A stretch of DNA of 64,000 nt from an uncultured Clostridia bacterium (GCA_944387385.1 CALXES010000007.1:1-64000); one strand, 5' to 3'; shown: positions 9,535 to 16,900, counted from the stretch's first letter. Program-made: numbers and translations. The notes: generated by a model from the sequence alone, not told the origin.

Positions 9535-10599
9535 TTATTTGAAATTTTTTTCATATAGTACATATTTATATTCTTTTGTTATTAGCTCTTTAAAATATAC
9601 ACTATTTGCATTTCCTTTTTTAATTAAAGCACCTATAGATGTTGATCTTTTTTTCTTAAGTTCCTCTTTTATTTCTTCTGCTAGTGCTCTTCCAAGTCCT
9701 AAATGATCTTTATCTACTCCCAAATACATTAGTATGTATTCTTTTTTCATCATCTTTTGAATCAATGCACTAATATACTTTTTCCTATTTATATAATTAC
9801 GATAATTTGGAATTGAAATAAAAAATCCAACCATTTGATTATTATAGTAAGCAATCTTTATCATCGAGTAATCTACTATTTTTTTCAAATCCTTATACAT
9901 CTGAAAAAAATCTTCTTCACTAATTGATTTATATGCTGGAAATTTACTATATAAATCTAATATCATCTTGCCAATTTGAATTAATTGCTCATAAAAAGTA
10001 TCTTCATTTGGTTCTATAAATTCATATCCCTTTTCTTTTAAACTTTTTAATCTATTAGTATAAATCCTATTTTCTTGATCTTTATTTACTCTAGAAAAAA
10101 TATTTGAACTATACTCTTGCAAAATATTAAATCCTGCTTTTTCAAACATTATAGGATAATAATCTTTATTATATGGTTCACCAAAATATGGCCTATTATA
10201 GTTGTCAACTTTAAATCTATATCCAATCCAAAAAGAACAATTTAATGGTCCTATAATTCCATTGTATCCGTTTCTTTTTACAAATCTTTCAATATAATCT
10301 AAAAAATAATTAGAAATATTATAATCCTTAACACACTCAAAAAAACCAATATACGCTTTTTCATCATTTTCATAAAATGTAACAATAGCTCTAGCTACGG
10401 CTTTTTTTCTTTTATTTAAAACTAAAAATTTATGTACTTTAAAATATTTACTTAATATATGTCTATTTTTCAATATTTGATTTTCTTCTTCTTCGTTTTG
10501 CATTATTTCTCTTTTTTTATATAGTCTTTTTGGAAGTGTTAAAAATTCTTTTATATACTCTATTTGATCTATAAATTCAATTATTTCATAATCTTGCAT
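9535..10599 (-). CDS. GNAT N-acetyltransferase, YghO-like
   Basis: The 354-residue protein has two parts. Residues about 90-150 (GFFECVKDYNISNYFLDYIE, then GIIGPLNCSFWIGYRF) match the acetyl-CoA-fold motif of the YghO type, where a GPLN segment sits where the substrate binds. Residues about 285-330 contain YLGVDKDHLGLGRALAEE, a classical GNAT acetyl-CoA binding turn. It would transfer an acyl group from CoA. It is the last gene of the lipid operon, 10 bases after the dikinase-like gene, so a role in acylating the operon's product is plausible. The acceptor is unknown. Confidence 0.7.
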   Translation of the reverse strand: MQDYEIIEFIDQIEYIKEFLTLPKRLYKKREIMQNEEEENQILKNRHILSKYFKVHKFLVLNKRKKAVARAIVTFYENDEKAYIGFFECVKDYNISNYFLDYIERFVKRNGYNGIIGPLNCSFWIGYRFKVDNYNRPYFGEPYNKDYYPIMFEKAGFNILQEYSSNIFSRVNKDQENRIYTNRLKSLKEKGYEFIEPNEDTFYEQLIQIGKMILDLYSKFPAYKSISEEDFFQMYKDLKKIVDYSMIKIAYYNNQMVGFFISIPNYRNYINRKKYISALIQKMMKKEYILMYLGVDKDHLGLGRALAEEIKEELKKKRSTSIGALIKKGNANSVYFKELITKEYKYVLYEKNFK

Positions 10600-10609
10600 T
10601 TTTTCTCCT

Positions 10610-12967
10610 CTATTCTAATACATTTATTACCCCAGAATTTGCATCAAGCTCAATTTTTTGACCATTTTTTAATATATTAGTTATATTTTTAACTCCTACA
10701 ATTGACGGCTTATTTAATTCTCTAGAAATAATAGCACTATGTGATAGCAATGAACCCTTTTCTGAAATTAACCCTCTAGCTTTAACAATTAAATAAACCC
10801 AGCCTGGATCTGTCATTTCTGTAACTATAATTTTATCCTTTGTATCTATATTCTTTACATTATTTTCATCAACAATTATAACTTCACCTATAACTCTACC
10901 ACTAGATGCAGGTGTTCCAATTATATGCTTAAAATCACTTAAAATAACTTCACTATTTATATTATTGTGATGTTTATTAATTACTCTATCTTTAAAAATA
11001 ATTCTAGAAAATGTCGGTAGATTTTTATACATGTCATACTCTAATTTTCTTTTCTCTACTATTTCCATCAAATTAAAACTACTATTATTTATTCCCTGTA
11101 TTACCTCGTCATAATACAAATAGTAAATATCTTTAATACTTTTTATCTTTCCTTCTTCTACAAAATTTTCACCAATATTTAAAGATATCGATCTCATTAT
11201 ACCATATAATTTACTTCTAGAAAGTCGTGAAATTTCTCTGTTTTTTATTCCATTTTTTGCTTTTTGTAAATACCTATTTGCCTTTTTAGATAATTTTATA
11301 TTAAGTTTTCTATCTTCATTTTTTATATACATATCTAAATTTTTATCTGATATATACTGTAATATTTTCTCAATAAGTAGTTTAGGATTAGTTCTAAAAG
11401 TATCACTTTCAAGCTTTAATTCCTCGACATTTCTATCACCATAATTTTCAATGTATTTTCTTAACATTAATTTTACTTCTGAATTACCAGAATATATATA
11501 TTCATAAGCTTCTCTATCATTTTTTAAACTAATAATTTCTTCTGTTAAGTTATTATCTCTTATATATTTACTAATTTTTATAAGTTCTTTTACAGGCTTC
11601 ATACTCTCAAGATTAGAAATATTAGATATTACAACATTTGATACATTTTTATAATTTTTTCCATATTCTTTTTTTATTTGTTTTTTTAATAATGCAGTAT
11701 ATAAAAAAGCATACATATCATTAACAAGAGTAATATACCATCTATTTATAATTTTTTCCTTTAAATCTAAGTATATTTTTATTAAGATTTTATTATCATT
11801 TTCAAAATTTATTTTTTTAAAGCTTTGAGTTTCAATCTCTTTAAAAAACTTATTTAATTCTTCCATTTCTTCATTATTAGTTTTTAATAATACTAAGAAA
11901 TTTTTAACTATCTTAAGTTTCACCCAAAAATTTACTTTTAAATCATTATCTACTGTAATACTTTTGTCCTCTACTCCAATCATTTCTTGCCAAACAGATA
12001 TCATAAAATGACTTAACGGAAGTACCTTTAATATATTATAAAAATTATTTATTTGATAATATAATCTTCCATTTGCTACTTCTACTGTATTTTTAAGTAC
12101 AAAATCATATTTTTCTATAGTTTTTTTATCATTGGTAAGTCTTTTAAAAACGCCTTTAAAGACACCATAGTATGCCTCTTTAACAAAACTTTGAGTAAAT
12201 GGAAGAGTAACTCCCGGATAGCTTTCAACAATATTACTATTATCTAATATAATTTTTTTCTTACAATCTAGTGTAGTTATTTTTCTTGCTTGTAAAATAT
12301 ATATTTTATCATCTTTAATACAAAATTCTATGTCTAGCTTTTCTCCCAATATTTTTTTGATTTCTTTAGAAATATTAATTAAATCTTCTACCTCTTTACC
12401 TGTAAGCTTTATAGAATCACCATATGACTCATAATAATATAAATTATCATTTAAGTTGTAGTAATATGATGTTGTTTCTACTCTTTCTTCAACAACATTA
12501 TCTCCAGTTCCTTTTCCAACTACAATAACAGTTTCATTTAATATTCCTTGTGGATTTGAAGTAAAAATAACTCCAGATTTTTCGGGAATAATCATCTCTT
12601 GTACGATTGCATACATATTTATTCTTTTTCTATATTTTGAATAAGCATGTATATTTTCTATATTGATTTCTTCTAAGCACTTTGAAACATATTTTAATAC
12701 ATCTTTTCTATCAATATTTAAAAAAGTATTAAATTGTCCTGCAAAAGATAGTTTATCACTATCTTCTAAAAGACTTGAAGATCTAATAGCAAATGTAACA
12801 TCAGAACTAAAAGTAGAGCATATATATTCTTCTATTTCATTTTCTACTTTATTGACACAAAAGAACTTTGGAATATTTATTCCATTTTCTTTAAGTAAAA
12901 ACATATTATATGCTTTTGTTCCAATTTTCTTTCCTTTAAAATTATTTTCGTTAATTATGTTCATCAT
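10610..12967 (-). CDS. PEP-synthase-like dikinase of rifampin-phosphotransferase architecture
   Basis: The 785-residue protein has an N-terminal ATP-grasp domain of the PPDK/PEP synthase type (about 1-235, with FAIRSSSLLEDS and SGVIFTSNP). A long middle domain (about 240-680) does not look like any family I recognise. A C-terminal phosphohistidine domain (about 695-785) has GSLLSHSAIISRELNKPS with the active His near residue 743. There is no PEP-binding TIM barrel. In rifampin phosphotransferase this order moves phosphate from ATP through the His to a substrate held by the middle domain, and that mechanism is likely here. The acceptor is unknown but in this operon could be a lipid alcohol. 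The start overlaps the UbiA stop (ATGATG). Confidence 0.75.
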   Translation of the reverse strand: MMNIINENNFKGKKIGTKAYNMFLLKENGINIPKFFCVNKVENEIEEYICSTFSSDVTFAIRSSSLLEDSDKLSFAGQFNTFLNIDRKDVLKYVSKCLEEINIENIHAYSKYRKRINMYAIVQEMIIPEKSGVIFTSNPQGILNETVIVVGKGTGDNVVEERVETTSYYYNLNDNLYYYESYGDSIKLTGKEVEDLINISKEIKKILGEKLDIEFCIKDDKIYILQARKITTLDCKKKIILDNSNIVESYPGVTLPFTQSFVKEAYYGVFKGVFKRLTNDKKTIEKYDFVLKNTVEVANGRLYYQINNFYNILKVLPLSHFMISVWQEMIGVEDKSITVDNDLKVNFWVKLKIVKNFLVLLKTNNEEMEELNKFFKEIETQSFKKINFENDNKILIKIYLDLKEKIINRWYITLVNDMYAFLYTALLKKQIKKEYGKNYKNVSNVVISNISNLESMKPVKELIKISKYIRDNNLTEEIISLKNDREAYEYIYSGNSEVKLMLRKYIENYGDRNVEELKLESDTFRTNPKLLIEKILQYISDKNLDMYIKNEDRKLNIKLSKKANRYLQKAKNGIKNREISRLSRSKLYGIMRSISLNIGENFVEEGKIKSIKDIYYLYYDEVIQGINNSSFNLMEIVEKRKLEYDMYKNLPTFSRIIFKDRVINKHHNNINSEVILSDFKHIIGTPASSGRVIGEVIIVDENNVKNIDTKDKIIVTEMTDPGWVYLIVKARGLISEKGSLLSHSAIISRELNKPSIVGVKNITNILKNGQKIELDANSGVINVLE

Positions 12968-13863
12968 AATTTACCTACCAATAAAAATATAATAATAGTT
13001 ATAATCATTGTAATCTCTGTAATATAAGTATACCTTTCCACTTTTTTTATATACTTAAACTTTTCAGGATTTTTAATAAATATAATAGAATCAGCTATAT
13101 ACCATATTAAATTTATTATTAACACTAAGATTGATATCTTATTTAAATTATAAATAAGTATAATATTTGTTATCAAATCAACAATTGTAATTAATATAAC
13201 AAATCTCACAACTTTTTTATGTCCAAATAGTTTTGAATAAGTAACATATTCAGTTTCATCTTTAGGTGCTCTAATTTTTCTTGATATTTCCCATATAAGT
13301 GCTGGAAAATATAATGTAAAAGCTGTCAATATAGATATATATGTAAATGGTTCTAAACTATATTTTATACAAGTAAAAGATATTATATAAATATTCATTA
13401 TCATTTGCACAGGATTATGAGTTATAAGTGCTAACATCAAGTTTGGCTGAATCTTATCCTTCTTAAAAAACCAAACAGACATAAGTCCACCATAAATGTA
13501 CAAAAATAAAAAAAATATAATATTATTCATAAACAAAAAATTTAAAATAGCTGTAATTACAATAAGAATCGCAGCAAATATTTTTAAATCTTTTTTAGTC
13601 ACTTTTCCTGCAGGCAATGGTCTTTGAGGAAAAAGTTTACAGTCTAGCTCGTAATCTTTAAAGTCGTCTGCTATTCTTAACATTAAAAGAAAACTAAATA
13701 TAGTAAACGCACCTACAAATTCTGATATACCTATATCAAATTCTGTAACTCCATAATTTAAAAGTATTATAAAATAAATCTCTGAAAAAATGATTACTCC
13801 AAGTATTAATCTAGGAATAATAGGATACATCTCTTTAAAATAGCAATGTAATCTTTTAATCAT
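12964..13863 (-). CDS. UbiA-family prenyltransferase-like membrane protein
   Basis: The 299-residue protein has about eight hydrophobic segments. The first Asp-rich motif reads RIADDFKDYELD at about 63-74, followed by RPLPAGKVTKKDL, as in UbiA enzymes. The second motif region has EISRKIRAPKDETEYVTYSK at about 191-210, with E, R, K in place of the usual second DxxxD. UbiA members attach isoprenoid chains to acceptors, including the glycerol lipid step of archaeal membranes. It overlaps the neighbouring genes by 8 and 4 bases, so it is tightly co-translated in the lipid operon. The substrate is not defined. Confidence 0.72.
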   Translation of the reverse strand: MIKRLHCYFKEMYPIIPRLILGVIIFSEIYFIILLNYGVTEFDIGISEFVGAFTIFSFLLMLRIADDFKDYELDCKLFPQRPLPAGKVTKKDLKIFAAILIVITAILNFLFMNNIIFFLFLYIYGGLMSVWFFKKDKIQPNLMLALITHNPVQMIMNIYIISFTCIKYSLEPFTYISILTAFTLYFPALIWEISRKIRAPKDETEYVTYSKLFGHKKVVRFVILITIVDLITNIILIYNLNKISILVLIINLIWYIADSIIFIKNPEKFKYIKKVERYTYITEITMIITIIIFLLVGKL

Positions 13864-14719
13864 ATATTTTCTCTCCTATTCTTGTACCAATTTCTACTTT
13901 AGTCTCAACATCTTCTTTAGAATTTTTTATTATTTCTTTATCTATTCTTATTTTATCTTTTTTAAACAGCTGAACTATTGTAGAGCCACCATAATCAAAA
14001 AAACCTTTTTCTTCCATTTTTTCAAACTCTTTTTTATAATTATTTATTATTTTTCCAACAAGCATTGCTCCAATTTCTATTTGAATTACCTTATCAAAAT
14101 TCTTTGTTTTCATAATAGATACTTCTCTAGAATTTCTAACAAATGAATTATACTTATAAGAAATAGGTCTAATAGTATGAAGTTTTCCTTTAATTTTTTT
14201 ACTATCAATTAAAATTCCATCATCTAGGTACATATATCTATGATAATCATCAACTGATAATCTATAAACTACACATATTCCACCATTATATTCATTAGCA
14301 AGCATGCTATCTTTAATTAAATCCTCAATGTTATAAGTACTATTCTTTATTTTAAGTAATAAGTTATTATCTATATTAAATACTTGAACTTTTGAATCAG
14401 CAATTGAAACTAATTCATTTGAGTAAGATTTATTTTCTATGTGTCTTTTCCTTGTAAAAAAATCTGAAAAGCTTTTATACTCTGATACATCTTTATACTT
14501 TTGCATATTAATTTTATATTTTTCTATAAATCTTGGTATTTTAGACTTAGATAACCTGCTTTTTTGATATAAAGCTTGTAACTTTGAAAACCATCTTGAA
14601 GAAAAAATAATTTTTAATAATATTCTTCCACAAATTGTATTATATAAAAATTCTAATTTTCTTTTTCCATACTCTATCTCTTCATAATATTCTTTTTTTT
14701 CTTTATCCCAAATTTTCAT
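13856..14719 (-). CDS. psd: Phosphatidylserine decarboxylase-like protein
   Basis: The 287-residue protein matches the Psd family. It has the self-cleavage motif as GGST at about 244-247 (Psd usually has LGST), DDYHRYMYLDDG at about 152-163 with the His that the family uses, and a final GTRIGEKI region. It would cleave itself to make a pyruvoyl group and decarboxylate a phosphatidylserine-type lipid to the ethanolamine form. The start overlaps the gene above. Psd can also act on archaetidylserine in archaea, so the lipid backbone is open. The preceding CDP-alcohol phosphatidyltransferase supplies the serine lipid. Confidence 0.85.
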   Translation of the reverse strand: MKIWDKEKKEYYEEIEYGKRKLEFLYNTICGRILLKIIFSSRWFSKLQALYQKSRLSKSKIPRFIEKYKINMQKYKDVSEYKSFSDFFTRKRHIENKSYSNELVSIADSKVQVFNIDNNLLLKIKNSTYNIEDLIKDSMLANEYNGGICVVYRLSVDDYHRYMYLDDGILIDSKKIKGKLHTIRPISYKYNSFVRNSREVSIMKTKNFDKVIQIEIGAMLVGKIINNYKKEFEKMEEKGFFDYGGSTIVQLFKKDKIRIDKEIIKNSKEDVETKVEIGTRIGEKIYD

Positions 14720-14722
14720 AAC

Positions 14723-15331
14723 TTATCCTACTATCTCAATTACTATTGTAACTATAATTGCTAAAATAAAAAATATAATATACCAAAGACCTTTAGGCTT
14801 TGAAATCTTAATATTTAGTATAAACAAAATGGCAAATAATAAGTAAATAAATGAATATAATAAAGATAATTTTAAGTTAAAAATTAATTCTATAGAATAA
14901 AGAATAGGTAATACTAAAGCTATATATGCCACAGGCATACCAATAAAATATTTAACAGGTTCTTTACTACTTGCCAAAATATTAAACCAGGCAAGTCTTA
15001 TTACACCAGATATAACATAAACGACCAAAACAATATAAAAATACCATGGTAAATCTTTTAGTAATATTGTTCCTAAAGCACAAGGTAATCCTAAAAACAA
15101 AAATACATCAGCTAAAGAATCTATCTGTTTTCCAAACTCTTTTTCTTTATCATCTCTTTTACAACTTCTTGCTATTTTCCCATCAAACAAATCGCATATT
15201 CCGGAAAAAATCAAGCATATCATTGCTTTACTAATACAACCTAAAAAACTAAATATTACTCCACATACAGCAAGAGTAATTCCCACATAAGTAAGTATTA
15301 CTGACTTATTATATTTTCCAATAAAAATCAT
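14723..15331 (-). CDS. pssA: CDP-alcohol phosphatidyltransferase (PssA-like)
   Basis: A 202-residue membrane protein with the family signature DGKIARSCKRDDKEKEFGKQ and then IDSLADV. Within this, D-x2-DG-x2-AR-x8-G-x3-D-x3-D is complete (about residues 47-75). It transfers an alcohol, most often serine here because psd follows, onto a CDP-activated lipid. Five to six hydrophobic segments are present. It is 12 bases below the CarS-like gene that would make the CDP lipid and 3 bases above psd. Confidence 0.88.
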   Translation of the reverse strand: MIFIGKYNKSVILTYVGITLAVCGVIFSFLGCISKAMICLIFSGICDLFDGKIARSCKRDDKEKEFGKQIDSLADVFLFLGLPCALGTILLKDLPWYFYIVLVVYVISGVIRLAWFNILASSKEPVKYFIGMPVAYIALVLPILYSIELIFNLKLSLLYSFIYLLFAILFILNIKISKPKGLWYIIFFILAIIVTIVIEIVG

Positions 15332-15343
15332 AGTCTTATCACC

Positions 15344-15925
15344 TCATATATTTTTTCTTATTCTTATAAGATATAAAAAAAGATTAACAACTATATGTGT
15401 AATTGCACCAAGAACAATAAATAGTAAAAATTGTTTTATTGACATTTTATACCAAATACTTAGTACTACTGTTACACCTATTATACTGTCAACTTGATCA
15501 AAGATAAAAAATAAAAATCCCTTTATTCCCCCTACTGTCTTTCCAGGTGATATTTTTAGTCTTCTTTTTATAAAACTATTTGGTAATTCAAAAATAACAT
15601 AAGCAAAACCCAAACAAAATCCAATTATAATATTATTAACAAAATTGTTTTCAACAGATGTATATACATAATTTCTACCATATAAAAAACTTATATTTTT
15701 ACAAAAAAAACCTACAACTACTTGAGAAATCACATTGAAAAATATCATAGAGAAAAAACCATTCCAAGTTTTATTTTCTCCAAATATATCTTGTCCATCT
15801 GCAAGTTTCTTTCCTCTATCAATTGGTACTCTATATAATCTATATAATTTTGTTTTTGTAAAAAACATATTCATAATACCAGCTAATATAACACTCATTA
15901 ATGTTACATACATATTTAATATCAT
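15344..15925 (-). CDS. CDP-archaeol synthase (CarS)-like protein
   Basis: A 193-residue protein with five or so hydrophobic segments. It matches the CarS/DUF46 group of CTP transfer enzymes: DRGKKLADGQDIFGENKTWN at about 36-55 (the conserved GENKTW), LPNSFIKRRLKISPGKTVGG at about 116-135, and DQVDSIIG at about 143-150. In archaea CarS activates an unsaturated archaetidic acid with CTP, while bacterial homologues activate related lipid phosphates. Its presence in place of the usual CdsA suggests an unusual lipid substrate. GAGGTAAAC precedes the ATG. Confidence 0.8.
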   Translation of the reverse strand: MILNMYVTLMSVILAGIMNMFFTKTKLYRLYRVPIDRGKKLADGQDIFGENKTWNGFFSMIFFNVISQVVVGFFCKNISFLYGRNYVYTSVENNFVNNIIIGFCLGFAYVIFELPNSFIKRRLKISPGKTVGGIKGFLFFIFDQVDSIIGVTVVLSIWYKMSIKQFLLFIVLGAITHIVVNLFLYLIRIRKNI

Positions 15926-15933
15926 AGTTTACC

Positions 15934-16296
15934 TCACATAATTATTAATTTTGGTATTAAAATTATTCCTTCAACAATAAAAAAACAAATTCCTATAATT
16001 AACACAGATGCAGCACTTACATCTTTTATAAACTTAGCATTTTCATCTCTTTTTACAATAAACTTATCTACTACTTTTTCAATTGCTGTATTAACATATT
16101 CTAAAGAAAATACTATAAAACATAAAATAAAAAAGACTGCAAATTCTATACCACTTGATTTTAAAAGTATATTAAAAGAGAGAAAAATAATAGCAATAAT
16201 TATATATATTCCCAAATTTTTTTCCTCTTTAAATCCTAGTATAATTCCATTTATTGCACAACTTATACTCTCAAAAATATTTTTATTTTTTTTCAT
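15934..16296 (-). CDS. dgkA: Diacylglycerol/undecaprenol kinase
   Basis: The 120-residue protein has three membrane segments and the family motif EYVNTAIEKVVD at about 69-80. DgkA-type enzymes phosphorylate diacylglycerol or undecaprenol with ATP, and in Gram-positives mostly undecaprenol. I take the ATG at 16296 because AAAGGA lies about 11 bases before it. The ATG at 16305 is too close to that site. It is the first gene of the lipid operon, preceded by the promoter at 16322-16350. In the pathway it could phosphorylate the lipid alcohol that CarS then activates. Confidence 0.88.
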   Translation of the reverse strand: MKKNKNIFESISCAINGIILGFKEEKNLGIYIIIAIIFLSFNILLKSSGIEFAVFFILCFIVFSLEYVNTAIEKVVDKFIVKRDENAKFIKDVSAASVLIIGICFFIVEGIILIPKLIIM

Positions 16297-16321
16297 AATA
16301 ATCATTGTCCTTTATACACTT

Positions 16322-16350
16322 ATTCTAACATAAAGGATATATTTTATCAA
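16322..16350 (-). promoter_or_regulatory. Promoter of the lipid operon
   Basis: TTGATA at 16345-16350 and TAGAAT at 16322-16327 are 17 bases apart, with TGT just before the -10 hexamer. It drives dgkA and the six genes behind it, and no terminator is visible until below 9535. Confidence 0.65.
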
Positions 16351-16389: not shown

Positions 16390-16572
16390 CTATTTTTCTT
16401 TTGGAATATATAATTTACATCTGCAAATCCCTTCATTTATGAACTCATCACATGGGCATAATGTTGTATCATCAACATTTACTCTACATGGACAATGACC
16501 TTGTTTTTTATATATTCCATTTATTATTTTTTCAACATATTCTTTATCTGGATTTAATATGTATCCTTTCAT
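16390..16572 (-). CDS. Ferredoxin-thioredoxin reductase catalytic-domain-like protein
   Basis: A 60-residue protein carrying the three paired-Cys motifs of ferredoxin-thioredoxin reductase beta chain. CPC is at 27-29, CPC at 39-41 and CRC at 50-52. The classical chain has 16 residues between the first two motifs but here there are 9. It would bind a 4Fe-4S cluster and a redox disulfide and pass electrons from ferredoxin to thioredoxin. It lies 13 bases after the thioredoxin gene, in the same transcript. No partner alpha subunit or flavoprotein is seen. The shortened spacing makes its chemistry less certain. Confidence 0.8.
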   Translation of the reverse strand: MKGYILNPDKEYVEKIINGIYKKQGHCPCRVNVDDTTLCPCDEFINEGICRCKLYIPKEK

Positions 16573-16585
16573 AATATCCCTTCCT

Positions 16586-16900
16586 TTATATATAATCTTC
16601 TACTAATGATAATACTCCATCTTCATCTAAATATCCTTCTGTTTGATTTACTACTTTACCATCTTTAAATACAAGTAAAGTTGGTACAACTTGTATTTTA
16701 TATTTATTTGCAAGACTCATTGCTTGGTCAATATCTACCTTTACTATATCAAAATCAGCTCTTGAATTAGATATTTTTTCAAGTACTGGTGTAAGCATTT
16801 GACATGGTCCACACCAAGTTGCAAAAAAATCAACTAAAACAACTTTTGAACCACTTAATACTTCCTCTTCAAAATTTTGCTCATTTACACGTTTTATCAT
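16586..16900 (-). CDS. trxA: Thioredoxin
   Basis: The 104-residue protein is a canonical thioredoxin with the active site WCGPC at residues 29-33 (cysteines 30 and 33) and the cis-Pro region VVPTLL at about 73-78. It reduces protein disulfides in the cytosol. Its partner, the small ferredoxin-thioredoxin reductase-like gene, follows immediately. A strong AAGGAGGATAAT site precedes the ATG, and the promoter is at 16944-16972. Confidence 0.95.
   Translation of the reverse strand: MIKRVNEQNFEEEVLSGSKVVLVDFFATWCGPCQMLTPVLEKISNSRADFDIVKVDIDQAMSLANKYKIQVVPTLLVFKDGKVVNQTEGYLDEDGVLSLVEDYI

Follow-up and report, generated by a model that had tools for sequence, protein, structure and literature searches.

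An uncultured clostridial bacterium carries a seven-gene operon that we read as a portable lipid-alcohol core, containing a UbiA-superfamily protein and a rifampin-phosphotransferase-like protein (PPS1), with swappable head-group modules that work like the archaeal head-group route. We judge the chances about even that this operon is a self-contained second phospholipid pathway, composed of core and head-group modules, that operates beside the normal CdsA route. The gene set is real and widespread, and no published description of it was found in the literature searched. Co-occurrence in other genomes had been raised as a check by an earlier, sequence-only reading of the locus; the arrangement is non-random, as dozens of clostridial genomes show it again.

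Organisation of the operon

The window is the whole 64,000-nucleotide stretch that was analysed (CALXES010000007.1:1-64000 in GCA_944387385.1), and its source genome is a clostridial assembly of 1.52 Mb (G000); genome-level statements on this assembly derive from searches for individual families. All seven ORFs of the operon proposed previously are present on the minus strand between 9535 and 16305, and the family of each protein is backed by Pfam. No intergenic gap exceeds 12 bp, and the gene overlaps reported earlier are found in two pairs, UbiA/PPS1 (4 bp) and PSD/UbiA (8 bp). Upstream are separate genes encoding a thioredoxin and a 60-aa protein resembling the catalytic chain of ferredoxin:thioredoxin reductase (16390-16900), with a clear stem-loop terminator at their end (16382-16355, minus strand). 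A promoter-like site, TTGATA-N17-TAGAAT with an extended -10 (TG), follows this terminator immediately (16350-16322, minus strand) and is a consensus match only. Such matches as a class, internal ones included, are at chance level (80 observed versus 73 expected); since the internal matches are no commoner than chance, a single promoter for the whole operon is plausible.

The proposed head-group genes

The first gene (15934-16305, minus strand) encodes a DgkA-family lipid kinase of the diacylglycerol/undecaprenol kinase type (PF01219 DAGK_prokar, 83.5 bits, 1e-23), in which E28, E69, N72, E76, K94 and D95 are invariant among 37 aligned sequences. It is followed by a CarS-like CTP:lipid-phosphate cytidylyltransferase (15344-15925, minus strand), which is a member of the CarS family according to PF01864 (62 bits against a cut-off of 22, 9e-17) and its catalytic residues (D36, D43, K52, D143 and D146, conserved in 61 sequences), with a putative substrate; its score against the NCBIfam equivalog is below cut-off (74 versus 148 bits). 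The third gene (14723-15331, minus strand) encodes a CDP-alcohol phosphatidyltransferase of the (archaetidyl/phosphatidyl)serine synthase type (PSS; PF01066 CDP-OH_P_transf, 2e-14) with a D-x2-DG-x2-AR ... G-x3-D-x3-D motif that is invariant in 37 sequences. This protein scores 80.8 bits with the archaetidylserine synthase model NF038087 and 70.5 bits with the bacterial PssA model TIGR00473, both values being below cut-off. The fourth (13856-14719, minus strand) is a Psd-type decarboxylase (PSD; PF02666 PS_Dcarbxylase, 146 bits, 1e-42) with a GGST pyruvoyl cleavage site, whose S246 (within GGST) and H160 are invariant in 38 sequences, and which also falls below the NCBIfam equivalog cut-offs.

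This is the sole PSD in the source genome. Within the family, PSD is found in 6 of 36 genomes, all of which bear the operon, making it the family's only PE-type route. The proposal that CarS replaces the usual CdsA proved wrong at the genome level, as CdsA is encoded elsewhere in the source genome (G000:C14, E 8.5e-54), and CarS as a CdsA replacement was rejected. Each of the family's six operon genomes has both enzymes, which makes a second CDP-lipid pool likely.

The UbiA-like protein, PPS1 and the tandem GNAT

The UbiA-superfamily transferase (12964-13863, minus strand; UbiA Pfam 2e-10, NF010118 429 bits) is of a type that we term RKI. Asp motif 1 is intact, with D66, D70 and D74 invariant in 81 sequences, whereas motif 3, the second Asp motif, is changed to E-x2-RKI-x-AP-x2-E. 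The latter corresponds to the D183/D187/D190 region of MjDGGGPS (PMC9385802); its substitute here, R195-K196-I197 ... E203, shows little or no variation across the 81 clostridial sequences. The RK and E of the altered motif are also retained in the UbiA proteins of variant C (see below). With motif 3 lost, prenyl-diphosphate chemistry by this protein is not assured, and its loss presumably resembles the situation in UbiA relatives that use non-prenyl donors. The closest relative is nevertheless the archaeal DGGGP synthase, both in sequence (E 1.5e-4) and among solved folds (Z 18.5; Foldseek 1e-5 versus 1e-2 for the next family). A membrane phosphoribosyltransferase is also among the closer folds (Z 16.1), but there is no NCBIfam match to the mycobacterial phosphoribosyl transferase.

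PPS1 (10610-12967, minus strand) contains ATP-binding, middle and mobile phospho-His domains (PPDK_N 2e-33, PEP-utilizers 6e-21). Pfam detected only PPDK_N and the phospho-His domain and no C-terminal pyruvate/PEP barrel, so that the library name "phosphoenolpyruvate synthase" is misleading for this Rph-like protein. Its closest solved relative is the rifampin phosphotransferase (Rph) of Listeria (PDB 5hv2 and 5fbs, E about 1e-50), with which it shares domain plan and catalytic His; His743 and the ATP-site residues are conserved. Unlike Rph, PPS1 scores far below the equivalog cut-off (194 versus 999 bits) and has a lipid rather than an antibiotic-resistance context. The last gene (9535-10599, minus strand; Acetyltransf_1 3e-4) encodes a tandem GNAT acyltransferase, the predicted model of which (pLDDT 94) has other tandem GNATs as its top fold matches (Z 18-20); these matches provide no clue to the substrate.

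Distribution and exchange of modules

Searching approximately 85,000 species genomes with six UbiA orthologues returned 351 relatives, and the best 80 of these 351 loci, to which the following counts refer, were read. These clostridial loci have UbiA followed by PPS1 as their constant element, nearly always accompanied by the GNAT on contigs of sufficient length, although the GNAT is absent from [Eubacterium] yurii (L077) and a few other loci. An AMP-forming acyl ligase is added at many loci; none lies beside the source operon. These ligases group with acyl-CoA ligases, the variant-C ligase forming a different subgroup, and the comparisons name no substrate.

CarS is found at 61 loci, 47 of which have DgkA as the only kinase and 13 only a second rifampin-phosphotransferase-like protein, PPS2. 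The remaining locus (L068) apparently combines DgkA with a second PPS, but phylogeny identifies the extra gene as a relocated PPS1; after this reassignment no CarS locus has both kinases or neither. PPS2 proteins form a distinct monophyletic clade (support 1.0) that keeps the catalytic His and ATP-site residues, and the two PPS2 loci without CarS are both cut at contig ends. This exchange beside CarS suggests a common role for PPS2 and DgkA, the phosphorylation of a lipid alcohol for CarS. The exchange has no exceptions but is clustered on the UbiA tree, with six changes and PPS2 on two deep branches, and therefore represents few independent events. PSS and PSD occur together and only beside CarS, two loci cut at contig ends being the exceptions, and 23 CarS loci lack both. 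Fifteen genomes with the core only have no CarS anywhere in the genome, which indicates further uses of the core product outside the CarS head-group route.

In the source genus the distribution is sporadic: the PSD-type operon occurs in 6 of 28 genomes, with DgkA in G000, G005, G007 and G010 and PPS2 in G004 and G021, and variant C is found in 2 of 28. A class-wide draw gave matches in 10 of 391 genomes; in a phylum-wide draw of 398 the only match was the source genome itself.

A second proposed head-group module (variant C)

At five clostridial loci outside the window (L015, L016, L136, L137 and L138) the UbiA-PPS core is joined to a DUF3419 protein (PF11899, E 1e-64) with predicted BtaA-type activity. 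BtaA, which we take to be the characterised member of DUF3419, functions in the synthesis of the betaine lipid DGTS; in variant C, by contrast, the DUF3419 gene is linked to the UbiA-PPS core and not to BtaB. These loci also encode a kinase-like membrane protein, lacking any Pfam match, with conserved RK-x2-H, AD-x2-AAL-x-G-x2-YG and KS-x-EG motifs that presumably resemble those of dolichol/phytol kinases. Profile searches of both proteins against solved structures yielded nothing informative. Searches with the UbiA proteins found none in phages and one plasmid, from the alphaproteobacterium Roseinatronobacter (L124, NZ_CP121116.1), which carries a complete variant C consisting of UbiA, PPS, DUF3419, kinase-like, GNAT and AMP ligase genes. 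A gene pair, one member of which is Tim44-like, is located downstream of both operon types in L014, L015 and L016.

BtaA moves an aminocarboxypropyl group from SAM to diacylglycerol (PMC3972451). As the substrates of DgkA are lipid alcohols, the two head-group modules would fit one type of substrate, apparently a core product whose hydroxyl is free; such a shared product is the main argument for the pathway proposed below.

Archaeal and ordinary lipid genes in operon genomes

Full-length GGGP synthase (PF01884) was not found in 30 genomes, which gave only partial matches of 46-57 residues, mostly within larger frames. The source genome has one PF00348 prenyl-diphosphate synthase, and 25 of 30 other operon genomes have exactly one, the product length not being readable from these matches; two operon genomes (G021 and G452), whose assemblies may be incomplete, have none. 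A PF00348 match is likewise missing from 16 of 36 same-family genomes, which presumably need undecaprenyl diphosphate. Neither G1P dehydrogenase nor geranylgeranyl reductase was seen beside the operon. A search of 20 same-genus genomes found PlsC-type acyltransferases in every one. PlsY (PF02660) was not found in five of eight same-genus genomes (G000, which is the source, G001, G005, G007 and G014), where its absence does not follow the presence of the operon; PlsC-type enzymes and CdsA are present in all five.

Proposed pathway and alternatives

The second-pathway reading builds on computed observations, namely the families and their catalytic motifs, which are intact, the exchange of modules, the presence of CdsA alongside and the sole PSD. 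All substrates are inferred, most of all what the UbiA protein takes as donor and acceptor. The core, comprising UbiA, PPS1 and the tandem GNAT together with the acyl ligase in many relatives, would produce a lipid alcohol with two chains. One chain would be attached by the UbiA protein in an ether step like that of DGGGP synthase, PPS1 would transfer the beta-phosphate of ATP to a hydroxyl on an intermediate, and an acyl group would come from the GNAT. DgkA, or PPS2 in other genomes, would then phosphorylate the free hydroxyl, CarS would make the CDP-lipid, the CDP-alcohol transferase would swap in serine, and Psd would decarboxylate this, leaving ethanolamine as the head group. That same hydroxyl of the core product may in variant C instead be capped by BtaA-type aminocarboxypropyl transfer from SAM.

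The steps from UbiA to the ethanolamine head group involve the same families as the archaeal ether phospholipid pathway (DGGGP synthase, CarS, archaetidylserine synthase and archaetidylserine decarboxylase). The non-standard lipid pathway suggested previously is supported, as a dedicated one with archaeal-style head-group steps, by the affinity of the UbiA protein to DGGGP synthase and the slightly higher score of the transferase with the archaetidylserine synthase model. These features, and the presence of CarS, could also indicate an archaeal-type isoprenoid diether, archaetidyl-ethanolamine, made by horizontally acquired archaeal genes. We strongly disfavour this explanation and consider it very improbable: no full-length GGGP synthase was found in the 30 genomes, most operon genomes have one prenyl-diphosphate synthase or none, and the motif 3 Asp residues of UbiA are replaced. 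The clostridial set also differs by its additional PPS1, GNAT and lipid kinase and by coexisting with a bacterial CdsA, and a kinase ahead of CarS would be unnecessary in the archaeal route, since DGGGP is already a phosphate.

The operon could also be an ordinary PE operon, in which DgkA recycles diacylglycerol, CarS serves as a second CdsA acting on phosphatidic acid, and PSS and PSD make PE, with UbiA, PPS1 and the GNAT decorating the lipid or acting separately. Serine transfer followed by decarboxylation is common to the operon and the bacterial pathway (CdsA, PssA, Psd), and this explanation stays alive because the operon is the only PE-type source in the family; the ubiquity of PlsC-type enzymes in the genus is consistent with it, and the CarS loci without PSS and PSD show that the parts are loosely coupled. 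We nevertheless regard it as unlikely. CdsA is already available, yet intact CarS loci keep CarS, paired with DgkA or PPS2, together with UbiA-PPS1; in archaeal work CarS and CdsA discriminate archaeal from bacterial lipids (PMC9385802); and it is UbiA-PPS1 that is constant and PSS-PSD that is optional. In Gram-positive bacteria DgkA is often an undecaprenol kinase, and a polyprenol pathway might be envisaged in which the UbiA protein acts on polyprenyl phosphate like the mycobacterial phosphoribosyl transferase, producing a lipid-linked carrier and not a membrane lipid. The membrane phosphoribosyltransferase among the closer folds, the assumed parallel to UbiA relatives with non-prenyl donors and the motifs of the variant-C kinase-like protein are compatible with this scheme, which we consider improbable in view of the missing NCBIfam match and the greater proximity of DGGGP synthase in fold and sequence; moreover, a carrier would have little use for head groups of the CarS-PSS-PSD or BtaA type.

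Implications

Returning to the core-and-module reading, we tentatively suggest a lipid class, spread across Bacillota and Alphaproteobacteria, with a portable core, interchangeable phospho-ethanolamine and homoserine-type head groups and a backbone that is neither ordinary diacylglycerol nor archaeol, for example one with a single UbiA-added ether chain and one acyl chain. If this is true, it would account for the many proteins that currently carry the names "phosphoenolpyruvate synthase" or "prenyltransferase", and a lipid not yet described would be produced in many gut and rumen clostridia, in archaeal style but without archaeal building blocks. This would bear on the "lipid divide" and would offer testable hosts for mixed membranes, including the cultured Pseudobacteroides cellulosolvens.
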